NCBI GenBank assembly: GCA_001797275.1
Contig: MGOY01000014.1
Span: forward strand, 124,001 to 188,000
Length of the DNA stretch: 64,000 nucleotides
Direction: 5' to 3'
Source of the DNA: Clostridiales bacterium GWF2_38_85
GTDB lineage: Bacteria > Bacillota > Clostridia > Oscillospirales > CAG-382
Shown here: positions 35,722 to 62,877 of the stretch, one piece after another
How positions within the stretch are numbered: position 1 is the first letter of the stretch
How the letters are laid out: each line of letters begins with the position of its first letter
Program-made: the position numbers and the translations under genes
The notes under the pieces: generated by a model
Database searches by the model: none
What the model was told of the DNA's origin: nothing
Seen by the model: the letters and a program-made list of their open reading frames with translations, nothing else

Positions 35722-35735
35722 AAATGGACCTTACA

Positions 35736-37814
35736 ATGCATACACAATACCCGCTTGAGCGTACTCGTAATATCGGGATAATGGCTCATATTGATGCTGG
35801 TAAAACCACAACAACAGAAAGAATTTTATTTTATACAGGTAAAACCCATAAACTCGGTGAAGTACACGAGGGTGCTGCAACAATGGACTGGATGGAACAG
35901 GAGCAGGAGAGAGGTATTACTATAACCTCAGCTGCCACAACATGCTTCTGGAAAGACTACAGAATCAATATAATAGATACTCCCGGTCACGTTGACTTCA
36001 CAGTTGAGGTTGAAAGATCTCTTCGTGTTCTCGACGGCTCTGTAACCGTTCTCTGCGCCAAGGGTGGTGTTGAACCTCAATCAGAAACAGTCTGGCATCA
36101 GGCTGACAAATATGGTGTACCGCGTATGGCGTATATCAATAAAATGGATATAACCGGTGCGGACTTTTTCCGTGTAGTTCAAATGATGCGTGATAGATTG
36201 AAGGCAAATGCAGTCCCGATACAGCTTCCAATTGGAAGTGAGGCTGATTTTCAGGGGATCGTTGATCTGATTGAAATGAAAGCATACTTCTATACAAATG
36301 ATCAGGGTACTGATATTCAGATATCAGATGTTCCCGATAATATGCTTGAACTTGCAAAGAAATATCGCGGCAAATTAGTTGAAGCAGTTGCAGAAATTGA
36401 CGAAGATCTTTTCGCAAAGTATCTTGAAGATCAAGAAATTTCAGCTGATGAGATCAAAACAGCTCTTCGTACGGCAACTATAGCTAATAAGGTTGTACCT
36501 GTAACTTGTGGTACTTCATATAAAAATAAAGGTGTCCAGAGATTACTGGATGCGATAATTGATTATATGCCGTCTCCACTTGATGTACCCAATATTAAGG
36601 GCATCAATCCTGAAACGGGTGAGGAAGACGAAAGACCTACAAGTTTAGATGCACCGTTTGCAGCTCTTGCATTTAAGATCATGACCGACCCGTTTGTCGG
36701 AAGACTTTGTTTTATCAGAGTTTATTCGGGCAGAACAGCTGCTGGTTCATCTGTTTATAACAGTGTTAAGGATAAACGTGAGCGCTTTGGACGTATAGTT
36801 CAAATGCATGCAAACCATCGTGAAGATGTCGATGAGGTTAGTGCAGGTGAAATCGCTGCGGTAGTTGGTATAAAATACTCAACAACCGGTGATACACTTT
36901 GTGACGAAAAAGAACCGATCATACTTGAATCGATGCAATTTCCGGATCCTGTTATCAGGGTTGCAATTGAACCGAAGACTAAAGCCGGTCAGGAAAAGAT
37001 GGGCTTAGCACTTGCAAAACTTGCAGAAGAGGATCCGACTTTCAAGACCTATACTGATGAAGAAACAGGTCAGACAATCATTGCAGGTATGGGTGAACTT
37101 CATCTTGAAATTATTGTTGACAGATTACTTCGTGAGTTCAAGGTTGAAGCGAATGTAGGTAAACCGCAGGTTTCTTACAAAGAAACAATCAGACGCAAAG
37201 CTGAATCCGATACAAAATATGCACGTCAATCCGGCGGTAAAGGTCAATACGGTCATGTCAAGATCAGAATTGAACCTAACGAGCCGGGTAAAGGATATGA
37301 ATTTGTTAACAGTATCGTCGGTGGTTCTATTCCCAAAGAATATATTCCTGCAGTCGATGATGGTGTCAAAGGTGCAATGCAAAGCGGTGTTCTTGCCGGA
37401 TATAATGTTGTTGATGTCAAGGTAACGCTTTACGATGGATCATATCATGAAGTTGACTCTTCCGAAATGGCATTCAAGATAGCCGGCTCAATGGCTTTAA
37501 AGGATGCTCTCAGAAAAGCAGATCCTGTTCTTACAGAACCGATTATGAAGGTAGTTGTTACATGCCCTGATGATTATATGGGTGATGTTATGGGTGACCT
37601 AAACTCGCGCAGAGGTCAGATTCAAGGCATGGAACCAATAGGTAGTGCCCAGCAGATAACTGCAATGGTTCCGCTTTCAGAAATGTTCGGATATTCAACA
37701 GATATGCGTTCTAAAACACAGGGAAGAGGCACGTATACAATGGAACCCAGCCATTATGCTGAAGTTCCAAAATCAATTATGGAAAAGATAACATCAAGCT
37801 CATCAAAGTCATAA
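35736..37814 (+). CDS. fusA: Translation elongation factor G
   Basis: Translocation GTPase of 692 residues. G1 is '[14 protein letters not shown]', G2 'RGITITSAA', G3 '[16 protein letters not shown]' and G4 'NKMD'. Domains II-V follow, with '[11 protein letters not shown]' in domain IV. The ATG at 35736 gives exactly the usual nine residues before '[11 protein letters not shown]' and is ~14 nt from the GGAG site; an ATG at 35724 is only two bases from that site and is less likely. This is the canonical EF-G; a diverged paralogue lies at 57.3-59.4 kb. The gene is in the str operon. Confidence 0.97.
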
Positions 37815-55750: not shown

Positions 55751-55782
55751 AACAGGTATTCCGAAATCGGAATACCTGTTTT
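55751..55782. terminator. Terminator of the pyr operon
   Basis: AACAGGTATTCCGA (55751-55764) / TCGGAATACCTGTT (55767-55780), a perfect 14-bp stem with a two-base loop and TTTT after it. It lies between pyrB and the convergent lipoprotein gene and may serve both. Confidence 0.9.
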
Positions 55783-55800
55783 CATAGGATATATTGTTTG

Positions 55801-57255
55801 TTAATTCATTGATGAATTTAATACTAAATCAAGATTGTCTTCAGAACAGAAAACAACAACATAATCAGGAGCGGGATCCAAACCTATATCCATCTTTCTG
55901 GGAGTGAGAATATCCATAGTATGGAATGCTGTCATCGAGAAACGTTCAGCAAGCATGTTGTAGATTGGTGTAACTGTTGAATCACGGTATACAACAACAT
56001 TCGGCATATTTTCTTTACCGGTTTTAATTACACGTCTGATTTGAATAGCATACTTAGTATCTTTTTCATCAATATTAAGCGTTCTGTCAACATCACTCTT
56101 ATAGAAGGTTCCTGTTGTGAATGAATAACTAAATGACTTTGGAGTAAGAATTGTTGCAGTATCTTTTGTAAGTTCTCTGTTCAAGTATAGATAACCTGCC
56201 ATATCGCCACCCCAGACTTCCTTGGTGTCTACATTGAAATCGCTGAGAGGTCTTGCTTTGGCAGCAGGGTAACGGTCGTCAATAACATTGAGAAGCTCAA
56301 CATAAGCAAGGTACGCAGCATAATCGGACCAGTTGCTGTTTGTTCTGTTAAACAGCTCGTAACCATCATCTTTGTGTTCAGTAAGTACCGTACTCATATC
56401 GATAATCGTTGCATTAATACCATCATCATTGAGTGCGCGGACAATCTGTTTATATTTTGTAGTATTTGTTGTAGTAACAAATTCCGCGGGTACATTTTCG
56501 GGATAAACAGAAATTGCGTTGGGAACAAGCACATAGATTATTTCGATAGGAGTATAATTTTTTGCGGCTTGTTCTTTCAGGTAATCCATAAATTCAAGAT
56601 CAGTCATTCCATCGGGCTTTTTCTCGGTTTTGGACATTTCTGATGCTATATCTGCTATGCGTTTAGCTTGAATAGTATCATAATTATCATTGACCATTTT
56701 CTTGAATTTCGCTATTTCAGTTGTACTGAGAAGGTTTTCACCATTATAATCTTTAAGTGTTTTCTTCAAGAAGAGTTGTGAATTTAATCCAACCATCACA
56801 CTAAGGTCATCAGGACGCTCAGAAACAGTTGCTTTATATGTAGCGGATAATACTCTTTCTATACTTTCTTCCTTGCCGTCAACCTTTGCTGTCATCTTAA
56901 GGCTATTAATGCCTGAGCTGGCAAGGACAACTTCGGTTATATAATAACCGCCAACACTCTGAACACTGACATCTTCTTTGCCTTTGGTTATTGTGATAAC
57001 GGCACCATCTTCGCATTTACCTGCAACAACAATACGGTCTGCAGTAATATTCACGATTTCAGTACATGTCGGTCTGTCTGTATAACCGGGCTGAGTAGAT
57101 TCATCCGGCTCCGAATATTCTTCGCTGACTTCGCTTGAAGTATTGGTCAGTTCAGGAATACTGTCAATGTCGATTGTTGCATCACCGATACATGATGACA
57201 TCGCAGATGATATTAATAATAACATCACCAATGCAATTATTTTTTTTGATTTCAT
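55801..57255 (-). CDS. DHHW-family (AlgX/SGNH-like) lipoprotein with altered active site
   Basis: Exported lipoprotein of 484 residues. A signal peptide ends in a lipobox-like SAMSSC (Cys22), followed by a S/E/T-rich linker and a small Ig-like domain (~60-135). The C-terminal part (~150-484) resembles the DHHW/AlgX-AlgJ SGNH-fold family: 'LFNRTNSNWSDYAAYLAYVE' aligns with the family signature T-D-H-H-W-T-x-x-G-A-Y-x-A-Y, and 'VVYRDSTVTPIYNML' with the serine block (Ser426). Here D-H-H is replaced by N306-S307-N308, with W309 kept, so acetyltransferase/esterase activity is doubtful and a binding role is possible. No MBOAT partner is nearby. It lies 33 nt after the EF-G-like gene on the same strand. 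Confidence 0.7.
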   Translation of the reverse strand: MKSKKIIALVMLLLISSAMSSCIGDATIDIDSIPELTNTSSEVSEEYSEPDESTQPGYTDRPTCTEIVNITADRIVVAGKCEDGAVITITKGKEDVSVQSVGGYYITEVVLASSGINSLKMTAKVDGKEESIERVLSATYKATVSERPDDLSVMVGLNSQLFLKKTLKDYNGENLLSTTEIAKFKKMVNDNYDTIQAKRIADIASEMSKTEKKPDGMTDLEFMDYLKEQAAKNYTPIEIIYVLVPNAISVYPENVPAEFVTTTNTTKYKQIVRALNDDGINATIIDMSTVLTEHKDDGYELFNRTNSNWSDYAAYLAYVELLNVIDDRYPAAKARPLSDFNVDTKEVWGGDMAGYLYLNRELTKDTATILTPKSFSYSFTTGTFYKSDVDRTLNIDEKDTKYAIQIRRVIKTGKENMPNVVVYRDSTVTPIYNMLAERFSMTAFHTMDILTPRKMDIGLDPAPDYVVVFCSEDNLDLVLNSSMN

Positions 57256-57288: not shown

Positions 57289-59373
57289 TTACTCGGATTC
57301 GGCAGCTTTCTTTGCTTCGGTAATAATTTTTTGCGCAACTTGCGCAGGTGCTTCCTCATATCTTAAAAAATCAAAGGAATAACTGCCTCTGCCTTGAGTT
57401 ATTGCTCTGAGTTGCACTGAATAGCTACCCATTTCATCGGTGGGAGCTTCAGCTTCAACTACAGTATAACCCTTTTTATCGCTTTGGTCTGTTCCGAGTA
57501 TACGACCTCTGCGTTTATTTATATCACCAATTATATCACCCATCATAGATTCTGGGATAGATACCTTAAGAATACCGATAGGCTCAAGAAGGATCGGATT
57601 TCCTAACCTCATTCCTTCTTTGAAGGCGAGATTTGCTGCCAACTTGAAGGACATTTCTGAAGAGTCGACATCATGATATGAGCCGTCGAACAAATTTGCT
57701 TTAACTTTAATTACAGGATAGCCGGCAAGAATCCCTTTTGACATTGATTCTTGCAATCCCTTTTCAACTGCCGGATGGAAGTTCTTTGGTACTGAACCAC
57801 CAAATATGGTTTCGGTGAATTCAAGGCCTTCTTCTTCGCCGGGTGAAAATTCGATTTTAACATGACCGTATTGACCATGACCACCGGATTGTTTTTTATG
57901 CTTACCTTCAACAGATACCTTTTTCTTGATGGTTTCTCTATAAGGTACTTTGGCAGGAGCAAGGTCAACAGATACACCAAAACGGTTTTTTAGCTTTGAT
58001 GTGAGAATATCAAGCTGCGTCTCACCAAGACCATAAAGACATATTTGCTTTGTTTCGGAATTGTTTTCATATTTTACTGTATAATCTTCATCAAGTAGCT
58101 TATTAATACCGGATGAAATTTTATCTTCATCACCTTTTGCTTTCGGAACAACTGCCATGCGAAGATATGGTTTTGGGAATTCAATTTTTGAATAGGATAG
58201 TTTAATTTCTCCTGCAGTCAGAGTATCATTTGTATTTGTATTTATAAGCTTTGAAGTAATACCGATATCACCACATGCAAGTTCATCAACTTCGAATTGT
58301 TTTGCACCTCTCGCATATGATACTTTTGCTAACTTTTCACTTTGACCGGTTGTGAGATTCTGAAGCATTGAATCCTTTTTGAGAGTTCCATTCATAACCT
58401 TGAAATAAGACATCTTGCCAACAAATGGATCGGCAACTGTTTTAAACATATAAATCGCAGTTTGCCCGTCAGGATTCAATTTTGCAGTCTGCTTATCACC
58501 ATTTTCGGTAATAAGTGTTTCGGTTCCTTTGTCAAGCGGAGAGCTGAAGGAAGTTTCTATAATATCGAGTAATGTTCTGATTCCGGCAAGTGTAACAGCT
58601 GAGCCTGAAAACACAGGATTAATTGCGCCATCGATAAATCCCTTATGTAATGCTTTTACTGTTTCTTCCTGCGTAAATGCTTCACCAGCAAAAAACTTTT
58701 CCATTAACTCGTCACTGGTTTCTGCAAGTGCTTCTGCAAGAGAATTTTTATATTCTTCGATTTTACTCTGTGAGGATGCGGGAATAGTTGTTTCTGTGCG
58801 ATCGCCTTTTTCATCAAAAGCATAAGCTTTTTCGGTCATCAGGCTGAAATATCCACAGAGTTTATCTTGATCATATATTGGAACGAATACAGGGCATACA
58901 CTTATGCCGAATGTATTTCTTAAGCTGTTTAATGCTTTGTCAAAATTGGCATTTTCATCATCCATTTTATTAATAAAAAATGATTTCGGTATATTTCTCG
59001 ATCCGGTTGCAGCATCCCATGAAAGCTCTGTACCTGCTTTACATCCGGATTTTCCACTTACAACTATAATTGCACTGTCAGCGACACGAACACACTGATT
59101 GACTTCTCCAACAAAATCGAAGAATCCGGGGGTGTCTAATAAATTAATCTTTACATTATTCCATTCAACGGTTGCCAATGCAGCAGATATTGAAATAGTA
59201 CGCTTTTTCTCTTCTGGGTCGAAATCACATACTGTGTTCCCTTCGCTCGGCTTCCCAAGTCTGTCGGTACCTTTGGAAAGAAAGAGCATTGCCTCGGCAA
59301 GTGATGTTTTTCCGTCTCCGCCATGTCCAATTAAAGCGATATTTCTAATCTGACCGGTTTGATATTTTGCCAT
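57289..59373 (-). CDS. Elongation-factor-G-like GTPase (EF-G2 type)
   Basis: Translational GTPase paralogue of 694 residues. The G1 loop is 'GHGGDGKTSLAEAML' instead of the EF-G form 'AHIDAGKTT', G3 is 'LLDTPGFFDFVGEVNQCV' and G4 'INKMDD'. G2 is degenerate ('KKRTISISAALATVEW'). Domain IV-V motifs '[17 protein letters not shown]' and 'MGDIIGDINKRRGRILG' are kept. Such EF-G-like proteins are common in Clostridia and have no settled role; ribosome-linked stress or recycling functions are proposed for relatives. It is distinct from the canonical fusA at 35.7 kb. A AAGGAGC site precedes the ATG; the DHHW lipoprotein gene follows. Confidence 0.9.
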   Translation of the reverse strand: MAKYQTGQIRNIALIGHGGDGKTSLAEAMLFLSKGTDRLGKPSEGNTVCDFDPEEKKRTISISAALATVEWNNVKINLLDTPGFFDFVGEVNQCVRVADSAIIVVSGKSGCKAGTELSWDAATGSRNIPKSFFINKMDDENANFDKALNSLRNTFGISVCPVFVPIYDQDKLCGYFSLMTEKAYAFDEKGDRTETTIPASSQSKIEEYKNSLAEALAETSDELMEKFFAGEAFTQEETVKALHKGFIDGAINPVFSGSAVTLAGIRTLLDIIETSFSSPLDKGTETLITENGDKQTAKLNPDGQTAIYMFKTVADPFVGKMSYFKVMNGTLKKDSMLQNLTTGQSEKLAKVSYARGAKQFEVDELACGDIGITSKLINTNTNDTLTAGEIKLSYSKIEFPKPYLRMAVVPKAKGDEDKISSGINKLLDEDYTVKYENNSETKQICLYGLGETQLDILTSKLKNRFGVSVDLAPAKVPYRETIKKKVSVEGKHKKQSGGHGQYGHVKIEFSPGEEEGLEFTETIFGGSVPKNFHPAVEKGLQESMSKGILAGYPVIKVKANLFDGSYHDVDSSEMSFKLAANLAFKEGMRLGNPILLEPIGILKVSIPESMMGDIIGDINKRRGRILGTDQSDKKGYTVVEAEAPTDEMGSYSVQLRAITQGRGSYSFDFLRYEEAPAQVAQKIITEAKKAAESE

Positions 59374-59540: not shown

Positions 59541-62108
59541 TTATGATAAGTATGACATTGCTCCAATAGGTGTAAGCCATAAAAGCTGGAACATGAGAGC
59601 ATAAACCGAATTAAGATAGCTTACAGAACCTGTTAAAGCAAGGAATGTAACAATCGCAATCGATAAAATCAGACTGCAAATACTTAAAACAAGGTTTGAC
59701 TTTATTGAATGACGTGTTTTATCACATAGAATGAACATTTTAAGGAAGGTATGTAATGAACCATTGGTAGCAATTGCTGATGAAATAACTTCTGATTTCC
59801 CGGTTATATCATCGGGTTTATCAGCTTTCAATATCGCAATAGGGCATTTTGTGAATCTTACTGTTTTTACAAGCAATTCATTACTTATATTCGGGTCGAA
59901 TGTTTTTATACCGACACACATTCCGGCACGGTACATATCTTTCAACAGTGAATCGAATCTTGGATTGATTTGATATTTAATATAAAGTTTTGCTGCCAGC
60001 TCATCGTCGATTGCAACATACATAATCGAACCGTTACCGGCTTCAAAATCGTTATCTCCATCTTCAACCGGTGCTATAAAGCGAAAGTTGCGCATAAAGG
60101 CTCGCTTGCCGATATATATATCCTTGCCTTCGGCAGAAACCAGAAGACCGTCGGAAGCACAGTCTATTAATTTAAAGTTCATCAGAGCGGGTGCTTCTTC
60201 GGACAATGCTTTATTCAATACGATAGATAATGGTCCACCAATTTTTGAAAAGATCCTTGCAGTATCCTGAATAACCATATCTATTCTGAAATCGCCGTAT
60301 GTTTTTAGACTTGTTAATTTGACATTAGAAGCAGGAAATACCTCTGTATCCGCAAAAGATATTACTGCAGCTGAATCGTATTCCTCGGTAAATGCATTAC
60401 CGATTAACGCTGATTCGCTTCTTCTCGCAAGCTTATTGGATTTATATGTAGGTAATATTGATATGAATACTGCACTTATCGGAAAAGCAGTTGCAATCAA
60501 TGCAGAAGCATATTTATATGAATTTAATACATTTTCACCCTTCATAAATCCTATTGCAAAAATCAAGACAGCAGATACGATAACAATCAAAAGTTGCCAT
60601 AAAATAATATCTTCGCTTCTTGCACGTGTTGTTATTCTTTTGAAGAAACCACCGACAAAATCAGTTCTTTTTACGGTATATATTTCAGAATCTTCGAGTA
60701 GATATTTATAAAATTCATCAGCTTCGCGGGTGCCACCCTTGATCGATTCAGCTGCATATTTCGGTCTGTCATCGCTGAGAATTTCAAAGCATCCGAAATC
60801 ACGTTTGCTTTGCATAAGCTTCGCGATAACAACAAAGAATGCTGTTGCAGCACCGGCTAAGTTGTAGAGTGTTAGGCTGGATGCCGTTGGATTGGAAAAT
60901 GCAACAAAAACAGTGTTGATTGCAGGAAGTAATATAGAAACGAAAAGCAAACTATCAATAGTAGGAGTTAATTTGAAGAGGTCTTTTATGCCTTTAATAA
61001 TACTTCCGAGCATTGTTATGGTTATAAAGAATAAAAGCTGTAAATCTACTAATGTATATAAAAGCCCGTATCTGCCCTGTCGCAGGAATATCGGATGAAT
61101 AGTTGAGGTTTTTGTTGCTGTCTCAATAAATAAAATTCCAATCGCAAATACAAATACCAATGCAAGTTTAATACGCCAGCTTTTTATGGCTTTTTTTAGT
61201 ATAGATTCAACCTCGCCGTCCTGTTCATGACTTGTATATTCATAATCAAGTTCATCTTCGACATCAATTTCTAAATTATCGTCCCTTTGTACAGTTGCTT
61301 CGGCTTTTTTATTTTTTCTTTTTTTATTGCCGGATGCTTTGTCAAATATCTCTTGATCGGGTAGGTTTTTCATATCATCAGGTATATCTACATCACTGTC
61401 AAGCATATTGAATGCGAGGCGAAGGTTAATATCGGTCGCATCGAGTGTAGTTTCTTTTGGTATTTTATCGATTTCACCGGTATCACCGAGTGAAAGCTGA
61501 ATTTGCTTAGTATCCTGTTCTCCTTTAAAAAGCGAGAAATCACTTTTTAATATTTTATCAGTAAGATTTGCATAATCATCGTCAAAATCAACTGTTTTAT
61601 CCGGCTGTTCACCTTTTGTCAGTTCATTTATGATTTGCTCGTCCGATATTAATTCATCCTCGTTTTCGTGCTTGAACAATACAGTTTGCTCGAACTCACC
61701 ACTGTTTTCAAGTATAGGCTCTTCGGTCGATAAACGGGTCGGAATTTTTGTTTCGGTTGTATCTGCTTTGACAAATTTATATAATTCGTCCATTCTATTA
61801 TCAGGAACTTTCTTTACATTACCGGTGAGGTAATCGGAAAGGTTTTTATCTTGCTTAATTTTCTTAGCAAATGATTTTGCAAGATCGTTATCATTATTTG
61901 AATTAGCAAAGAAAACTATAGAAGGTATATCATTTTCCTGTGTATTAGTATTTTTATCTATAATATCAATACTTTCTGTATTGCGTGTAACACCAAGCGC
62001 ATTAACAGTAGTTTTATGCGCTTGATCTAAAATGTCTTCAATATTCTTAATTGTCCGGTTGACAGCAGTACGATCGGCTTTTAATTTTTCTTCTTCTTTT
62101 AATGCCAT
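59541..62108 (-). CDS. P-type-ATPase-like membrane protein lacking catalytic motifs
   Basis: Protein of 855 residues. Residues 1-~300 are charged and probably disordered. Then the layout matches a P1B-type ATPase: four helices (~306-430), a short cytosolic stretch, two helices (~495-550), a ~250-residue cytosolic domain and two final helices (~808-855). The sixth helix 'ALIATAFPISAVFISILP' corresponds to the CPC helix without cysteines. The cytosolic domain starts 'ESALIGNAFTEEYDSAAVIS' and at the phosphorylation site has F585-A-D-T-E-V590 where active enzymes have F-D-K-T-G-T. Later 'GKDIYIGKRAFMRNF' and 'MYVAIDDELAAKLYI' match N/P-domain motifs, but the TGDN hinge is 'KTFDPN', and no TGE is seen. 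It is likely a pseudo-ATPase. It starts seven bases after rlmB ends. Confidence 0.7.
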   Translation of the reverse strand: MALKEEEKLKADRTAVNRTIKNIEDILDQAHKTTVNALGVTRNTESIDIIDKNTNTQENDIPSIVFFANSNNDNDLAKSFAKKIKQDKNLSDYLTGNVKKVPDNRMDELYKFVKADTTETKIPTRLSTEEPILENSGEFEQTVLFKHENEDELISDEQIINELTKGEQPDKTVDFDDDYANLTDKILKSDFSLFKGEQDTKQIQLSLGDTGEIDKIPKETTLDATDINLRLAFNMLDSDVDIPDDMKNLPDQEIFDKASGNKKRKNKKAEATVQRDDNLEIDVEDELDYEYTSHEQDGEVESILKKAIKSWRIKLALVFVFAIGILFIETATKTSTIHPIFLRQGRYGLLYTLVDLQLLFFITITMLGSIIKGIKDLFKLTPTIDSLLFVSILLPAINTVFVAFSNPTASSLTLYNLAGAATAFFVVIAKLMQSKRDFGCFEILSDDRPKYAAESIKGGTREADEFYKYLLEDSEIYTVKRTDFVGGFFKRITTRARSEDIILWQLLIVIVSAVLIFAIGFMKGENVLNSYKYASALIATAFPISAVFISILPTYKSNKLARRSESALIGNAFTEEYDSAAVISFADTEVFPASNVKLTSLKTYGDFRIDMVIQDTARIFSKIGGPLSIVLNKALSEEAPALMNFKLIDCASDGLLVSAEGKDIYIGKRAFMRNFRFIAPVEDGDNDFEAGNGSIMYVAIDDELAAKLYIKYQINPRFDSLLKDMYRAGMCVGIKTFDPNISNELLVKTVRFTKCPIAILKADKPDDITGKSEVISSAIATNGSLHTFLKMFILCDKTRHSIKSNLVLSICSLILSIAIVTFLALTGSVSYLNSVYALMFQLLWLTPIGAMSYLS

Positions 62109-62115
62109 CCGTCAA

Positions 62116-62877
62116 TCACTCCGTTTCATTCCTGTGTTTAGCTGCTTCCATTAAAACAACAGCAGCAGCCGCTGATACATTCAATGAACTAATTTTTCCA
62201 TACATCGGAATGGATAAAATATAATCGCTTCGATCTTTGATAAGTCTTGAAACTCCTTCACCTTCACTGCCCAAAACAAATGCGGAAGGAGCATTTAATT
62301 TTTCTTTATAATATGGTGTTCCGTTTGCTTCCAAAGCGTAAACCCAGACACCCGCTTTTTTCAACAGTTCAATTGTATTGACTAAATTTGATACTCTTGC
62401 AACTGTAACATGAGCAGTCGCACCGGCAGATGCTTTAACAACTGTTGCGGTTATACTGACACTGTTGCGTTTCGGTATAATTATTCCGTGAACTCCCGCA
62501 GCTTCGGCTGTACGGATAATTGCACCGAGATTGTGAGGATCGTTTATATTATCGCATATAACAATAAAAGGTTTTTCATTTTTTTCCTTCGCAATCTGTA
62601 GAATATCTTCAACAGAGACATAATCGATAGTAGAAGTTGTAGCTGCAATTCCCTGATGAACAATACCGGACGCCATTTCATCAAGCTTCCGTTTGTCTGC
62701 TTCGACAACCGGAACACCATGCTGTTTTGCTTCGTTTATTATTTTGCCAATAATACTGTCATGTAGTCCCTTTTGAATATAAATTTTATCAATTGAGCGC
62801 TCACTTTTAATGAGTTCGAGAACAGAATTTCTACCGAACACAATTCCGGTGCTGTTATTGTTTTCATTTTCCGTCAA
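62116..62877 (-). CDS. rlmB: 23S rRNA (guanosine(2251)-2'-O)-methyltransferase RlmB
   Basis: SpoU/TrmH-family methyltransferase of 253 residues, modifying G2251 of 23S rRNA. The N-terminal L30e-like RNA-binding domain has 'VFGRNSVLELIKSERSIDKI'. SPOUT motifs are visible: 'VICDNINDPHNLGAIIRTAE', 'ALEANGTPYYKEKL...FVLGSEGEGVSRLI' and 'IPMYGKISSLNVSAAAAVVL'. Start ATG at 62877. It has a consensus promoter ~130 nt upstream and is the first gene of a unit with the P-type-ATPase-like gene. Confidence 0.95.
   Translation of the reverse strand: MTENENNNSTGIVFGRNSVLELIKSERSIDKIYIQKGLHDSIIGKIINEAKQHGVPVVEADKRKLDEMASGIVHQGIAATTSTIDYVSVEDILQIAKEKNEKPFIVICDNINDPHNLGAIIRTAEAAGVHGIIIPKRNSVSITATVVKASAGATAHVTVARVSNLVNTIELLKKAGVWVYALEANGTPYYKEKLNAPSAFVLGSEGEGVSRLIKDRSDYILSIPMYGKISSLNVSAAAAVVLMEAAKHRNETE

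Follow-up and report, generated by a model that had tools for sequence, protein, structure and literature searches.

The lipoprotein gene and its surroundings

The window, a stretch of 64,000 nucleotides of contig MGOY01000014.1 from Clostridiales bacterium GWF2_38_85, carries a gene for a putative lipoprotein related to AlgX. The reading frame that the preliminary description had proposed for it was recovered exactly, on the minus strand (Table 1). It begins with ATG, and an AGAGG ribosome-site-like stretch precedes the start. The encoded protein of 484 residues has a signal-peptide-like N-terminus followed by Cys22, a lipobox cysteine found in all 49 members of the clade described below and in 67 of 68 aligned relatives. 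It is therefore predicted to be a bacterial lipoprotein, and the signal peptide together with the invariant Cys22 suggests export and lipid anchoring. The hairpin behind the gene is weak evidence by itself, since a scan found 4 terminator-like sites against 2.5 expected, and a promoter scan gave a result at chance level.

Table 1 Features of the locus, in order of position in the window.
Feature	Position	Strand	Basis or remark
Terminator-like hairpin, 13-bp stem	55751..55780	(-)	3' of the lipoprotein gene, between convergent genes
Pseudo-AlgX-like lipoprotein gene (predicted)	55801..57255	(-)	ORF, 484 aa; PF16822 43.2 bits; model mean pLDDT 88.2
SGNH domain, AlgX/PatB1 type, about residues 146-484	55804..56820	(-)	Fold matches to PatB1, 4nzk, AlgJ and AlgX
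D448, at Ser+22	55912..55914	(-)	Trp in 67/68 active-type relatives, in 0/49 of the clade
Block I, R424-D425-S426	55978..55986	(-)	Ser retained here; lost in 43/49 clade members
Block V remnant N306-S307-N308-W309 in place of D-x-H-W	56329..56340	(-)	Alignment
Ig-like domain, residues 57-143	56827..57087	(-)	Big_6 match below cut-off; SiiE Ig domain Z 11.8, 79 aligned, rmsd 1.6
EF-G paralogue (EF-G2), syntenic partner	57289..59373	(-)	33 nt upstream; Pfam EF-G domains; synteny
P1B-ATPase-like membrane protein without the DKTGT Asp, syntenic partner	59541..62108	(-)	Profile and fold
F585-A-D-T-E589; A586 aligns with the Asp of DKTGT	60342..60356	(-)	Profile alignment
RlmB-like SpoU rRNA methyltransferase, head of the syntenic block	62116..62877	(-)	Pfam; synteny

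As had been described, the lipoprotein gene follows an EF-G-like gene, which proved to encode an EF-G paralogue on the same strand. A second EF-G-like reading frame was noticed by eye elsewhere in the window (35724-37814). Pfam gave no family for the next gene product upstream (E1-E2_ATPase appeared only at E 0.01 in one of four relatives), so its identification needed profile and fold comparison. It resembles copper P1B ATPases in profile (E 5e-7) and has a fold match with Z 23.5 over 487 residues, but with an rmsd of 9.3 and a model pLDDT of 72.8. In 31 aligned relatives the position of the DKTGT Asp is occupied by Ala (29), Ser (1) or Glu (1), so that the Asp is replaced in every one.

We then assigned the lipoprotein to a family. 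The preliminary description had placed it in the DHHW family, a label that fails at the level of HMMs. Pfam reported PF16822 ALGX over residues 237-358 (43.2 bits, cut-off 26.5), PF14286 DHHW was not reported up to E 10, and NCBIfam returned no match. The DHHW blocks TDHHW, KDS and DxRY (PMC9487903) are absent; the protein reads TNSNW and RDS and has no Arg at Ser+22. In a structure model that used 44 of the 49 clade sequences, the circularly permuted SGNH fold was recovered, with matches to PatB1 (5v8e; Z 21.7, 272 residues aligned, rmsd 3.2, 15% identity, residues 150-482), to EUBSIR_00411 (4NZK; Z 21.2, 261 aligned), to AlgJ (Z 17.6) and to AlgX (Z 15.5). The nearest solved proteins in profile comparison were PatB1 (E 5.5e-7) and AlgJ (2e-6). 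The triad of the AlgX family, D-x-H plus Ser, is not there, as N306 and N308 take the first two places and only Ser426 is retained. Judged by sequence, the protein is an AlgX relative by descent and not an AlgX-type enzyme.

Loss of active-site residues in one clade at a conserved place

The triads of AlgX (D174, H176, S269) and AlgJ (D190, H192, S288) consist of a D-x-H with the Ser following much later (PMC4148444). In an alignment with 68 relatives, TNSNW (residues 305-309; codons of 306-309 AAC AGC AAC TGG) and RDS of the window protein fall on the D-x-H-W and R-D-S blocks, so that the catalytic Asp corresponds to N306 and the catalytic His to N308. A replacement of D-H-H by N-S-N had been claimed. 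The Asn at both catalytic positions and the retained Trp (W309) are as described, but S307 replaces nothing, because active-type relatives read D-S-H or D-T-H; two catalytic residues are changed, not three. An intact D-x-H was looked for elsewhere, and neither D-x-H nor D-x-x-H occurs anywhere in the 484 residues, whose only His are H294 and H445. The later serine block, also described as kept, is present as RDS426 in the window protein, but the window Ser is one of only six in the clade and the two nearest orthologues have Glu in its place, so RDS cannot be read as a maintained nucleophile. The spacing from Ser to D448 equals in the alignment that from Ser337 to the oxyanion Arg359 of PatB1, and the residue at this oxyanion position is lost in all 49 clade members.

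We surveyed 63 genomes of the same taxonomic family, which are drafts, several of them less than 80% complete. The window protein had matches in 48 of these genomes and in 9 of the 13 genera, and family paralogues were counted from among the matches listed in this survey. A match was called syntenic, whatever its motif, if a homologue of EF-G2, the P-type-ATPase-like protein or RlmB lay no more than 6 kb upstream on the same strand. Matches below 30 bits, including a DHHW protein on contig C32 of the genome that contains the window, were left out of this grouping. Before alignment, 7 of 110 groups were dropped, namely six short or DHHW-type ones and L045, a distant Lachnospiraceae locus from the contig search that has D-T-H-W and RDSY intact and stands outside all counts. 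This left 103 proteins: 48 syntenic ones from 47 genomes, L119, which lies at a contig end and was placed by the tree alone, and 54 others among the matches listed.

In a quick tree calculated without the motif columns, to which 14 proteins from outside the family were added, a single branch (SH-aLRT 99) separated 49 proteins from all the others. The same split came out when the N-terminal part or the C-terminal part was used by itself (96 and 98; FastTree, one outside row fewer). A clade copy is present in 48 of 48 genomes with a match, one genome having two, and in 47 of the 48 it lies visibly beside EF-G2, the P-type-ATPase-like gene or rlmB. EF-G2 is upstream at -28 to 128 nt in 37 of the 48 syntenic cases, and in the other 11 the P-type-ATPase-like gene is found with EF-G2 absent. 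All three partners were seen in 10 genomes from seven genera; many of the other stretches do not reach far enough to show them. The P-type-ATPase-like protein was matched in 62 of the 63 genomes. In a g2 sub-branch (L109, L115, L123, L125, L127, L128, L129 and L131) no EF-G2 was seen between the ATPase-like and the dead AlgX-like genes, which are about 100-190 nt apart. One genome has tandem dead AlgX-like genes (L125:4282-7227), both with D-S-H-P and RDEN. Where core regions rearrange slowly, however, gene order can be preserved with no functional link behind it.

Among 394 sampled genomes of the order, 51 had a profile match at E <=1e-25. The best match in 16 genomes from outside the family had E 1.5e-75, compared with 1.9e-118 or lower for those clade copies of the family that were among the matches listed; outside genomes with weaker matches (G128, G141, G165, G250 and G266) were left out. 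None of the partners EF-G2, P-type-ATPase-like protein or RlmB occurred in the 14 outside regions read (11 of the 16 genomes). The clade is thus confined to one family within this sample.

Asp, His, Trp and Ser are present together in none of the 49 clade proteins, in all 54 other family paralogues read (those among the matches listed) and in all 14 outside proteins of the tree. Two of the 16 outside proteins, L172 and L173, were left out of the tree and of this last count; both are degenerate. These long AlgX-like proteins of another family of the order lack triad residues (L172:3033-5306, GSTL and RDLF; L173:3444-5786, DTLW and RDAF). They could be independent pseudoenzymes and may point to further losses elsewhere.

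Within the clade, Asp is retained in 38 of 49 proteins, His in 24, Trp309 in 10 and Ser in 6, and Trp at Ser+22 in none, against 67 of 68 active-type relatives. The losses took different paths. In the window lineage and in genus g5 it is Asp and His that are gone, with Trp309 still in place; most other members kept Asp and lost Trp309, in some cases with the His lost too. Three g8 proteins from one genus kept Asp, His and Ser, and since only the two Trp positions are missing, weak activity is possible in these three. If the ancestor was intact, the clade needs at least 2 changes at Asp, at least 4 at His, at least 2-3 at Trp, and from at least 5 (regain allowed) to 12 (losses only) at Ser. Sixteen columns are conserved in 95% or more of the 68 active-type proteins; in the clade, the six at or near the catalytic site were kept at 41% on average and the other ten at 85%, a test that is partly post hoc as position 448 was chosen after inspection of the columns. 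Sequencing error was rejected as the cause because the losses at these positions differ from genome to genome. The preliminary description had suggested looking for the N-S-N change in orthologues; what was found is that loss of the Ser-His-Asp machinery is a property of the whole syntenic clade, reached in various ways.

Comparison with active systems and with paralogues

The substitutions D193A, H195A and W196F ablate O-acetylation by AlgJ, and its triad mutants lose only about 80% of esterase activity (PMC4148444). PatB1 has the catalytic residues D200, H202 and S337 with Arg359 as oxyanion residue; S337A and R359A abolish its activity and D200A and H202A only reduce it (PMC9487903). The block V Asp is missing from some working SGNH esterases, including NanS and many CE2 enzymes (PMC9487903), so loss of the Asp alone is no proof of death; the window protein has lost the His too. 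Catalytic death of the Ser-His-Asp machinery in the clade is well supported as a prediction from sequence.

PatB1, the DHHW O-acetyltransferase of the Bacillus cereus secondary cell wall polysaccharide (5V8E), is like the window protein in fold and order of blocks, and the profile match quoted above was obtained with the clade. The window protein differs in having TNSNW and D448 and in lacking TDHHW, the oxyanion Arg and a nearby MBOAT gene. AlgX and AlgJ of Pseudomonas, which serve alginate O-acetylation, share with it the PF16822 match and the fold (Z 15.5-17.6); it differs from them by Asn for both catalytic Asp and His, by its lipid-anchor Cys and by the Ig-like domain in front. The uncharacterised DHHW protein EUBSIR_00411 of Eubacterium siraeum is similar in fold. 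A further comparison is with the active-type AlgX-like paralogues of the same bacterial family, such as two in the genome of the window, on contigs C36 (L049) and C46 (L050), which show 27-33% identity in the matched stretches, the Pfam ALGX match and a lipobox Cys. They differ in that D-T/S-H-W, RDSY and the Trp at Ser+22 are intact, and they lie elsewhere in the genome. The C36 protein (L049:8506-10818) is extended to 770 residues by Big_2 and Big-like Ig repeats.

MBOAT-SGNH pairs have been described as acyl-relay enzymes (PMC12148441), and in Clostridia an MBOAT/DHHW pair has been described in a cellulose locus (PMC7710045). The window gene has no MBOAT neighbour, in agreement with the preliminary description; the single MBOAT match of the genome is on contig C45, beside a DHHW gene. 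A missing MBOAT gene is weak evidence in itself, because the active-type paralogues on C36 and C46 have no MBOAT neighbour either. The DHHW protein on C32 (L052:7851-9116; PF14286 131.6 bits), which is on a different contig from the MBOAT match, has TDVNW and RES, with Asn for the catalytic His.

Retention of the gene and possible roles

The gene has been kept under purifying selection. In 15 clade pairs, not all independent, dN/dS was 0.05-0.32, compared with 0.08-0.24 in active-type pairs (9 calculable of 11) and 0.03-0.09 in 7 EF-G2 pairs; the pair of the window protein and a same-genus protein gave 0.12, near saturation (dS 2.7). Cys22, Gly79, Pro245, Tyr318, Pro418, Arg424, Asp464 and Glu472 are invariant in the clade. 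A pseudogene was rejected on dN/dS and on the length of the reading frames.

Catalytic residues have been lost across the clade and the gene has been kept intact at the same spot, which suggests that the protein works without catalysis now. We consider a catalysis-independent role, as an old and selected pseudo-acyltransferase, likely. The clade would be an old non-catalytic one that split from the active-type AlgX-like paralogues, and purifying selection has kept the gene while its catalytic positions changed in a different way in each of several genera. In the putatively membrane-anchored lipoprotein, the N-terminal Ig-like domain may act as a spacer and the SGNH domain may present the old acceptor groove. 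The corresponding groove of PatB1 has been described as holding the polysaccharide acceptor (PMC9487903). In the window protein it would most likely hold a cell-surface polymer without modifying it, so that a polymer-binding or scaffold function is probable, and glycan binding, which had been proposed in the preliminary description, is plausible from the retained fold of the model. Among catalysis-independent roles, polymer binding would be our first choice and regulation of a partner the second.

In such regulation the dead protein would tune acylation, either by binding to an acyltransferase that is still active (AlgX-like or DHHW/MBOAT) or by competing for its polymer acceptor. Potential partners are common, with active-type AlgX-like paralogues in 34 of the 48 genomes (among the matches listed) and an MBOAT match in 62 of 63. 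However, no active-type AlgX-like paralogue was found in the other 14, including by a second search with an active-type query, though at least some of them have DHHW genes; one genome that has the dead copy and is 91% complete shows no MBOAT match, and no shared locus was seen. The extras in these 14 are proteins that have only an Ig domain or only the N-terminal part (G036, G038 and one in G062) and DHHW-type proteins (G040 and G062). One of them, in G062 (L213:38-1078), is a frame of 346 residues whose match to the AlgX-like model is confined to the N-terminal part; it lacks a catalytic region and may be either a truncated copy or a protein in its own right. We regard tuning of an acyltransferase as unlikely, with some chance of being right.

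Still less probable is that the old active site has been rebuilt for another chemistry, with Asp and His joined by Glu or Asp to bind a metal or to form an acid-base pair. In 26 of 49 clade members the Ser is replaced by Glu or Asp; the letters D-H-E (12/49) and D-H-D (8/49) together account for 20. Yet a new activity across the clade would be expected to fix its residues, and this pattern varies: Asp, His or both are missing from the window lineage, from g5 and from part of g2, and for the window lineage a rebuilt metal or acid site explains nothing. Gene decay, with the gene as a relic being lost, would fit the missing catalytic residues and the diversity of the clade (25-57% identity to the window protein among 43 other members aligned). 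It is largely refuted by dN/dS values similar to those of the active-type paralogues; reading frames are also long throughout (462-562 residues), Cys22 and structural residues are invariant, and all 48 genomes with a match keep a copy. We give decay almost no weight. The reading that we prefer remains a protein selected for a role other than catalysis, probably in holding a polymer.

As the ATPase-like neighbour lacks the phosphorylation Asp, two former enzymes lie side by side. It is conceivable, with a small chance, that rlmB, the Asp-less P1B-ATPase-like gene, EF-G2 and the pseudo-acyltransferase gene form a lineage-wide unit, in which one former enzyme spanning the membrane and another on its outer face would serve, without catalysis, as a sensor or scaffold of the envelope with a link to translation.

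Pseudoenzymes as such are familiar. A syntenic, selected and lineage-wide dead clade of AlgX/PatB1-type proteins appears to be new; in the accessible portions of the open-licence literature, no paper was recognised as describing a non-catalytic AlgX/DHHW clade. The Pfam name implies an acetyltransferase and would mislead in the case of this clade, although it is the dead copy that every family genome with a match possesses. The clade offers a natural series of stepwise active-site losses in one fold and at one locus, with intact paralogues beside it, and thus a clean system for asking what the scaffold of an SGNH acyltransferase does once its chemistry is gone.
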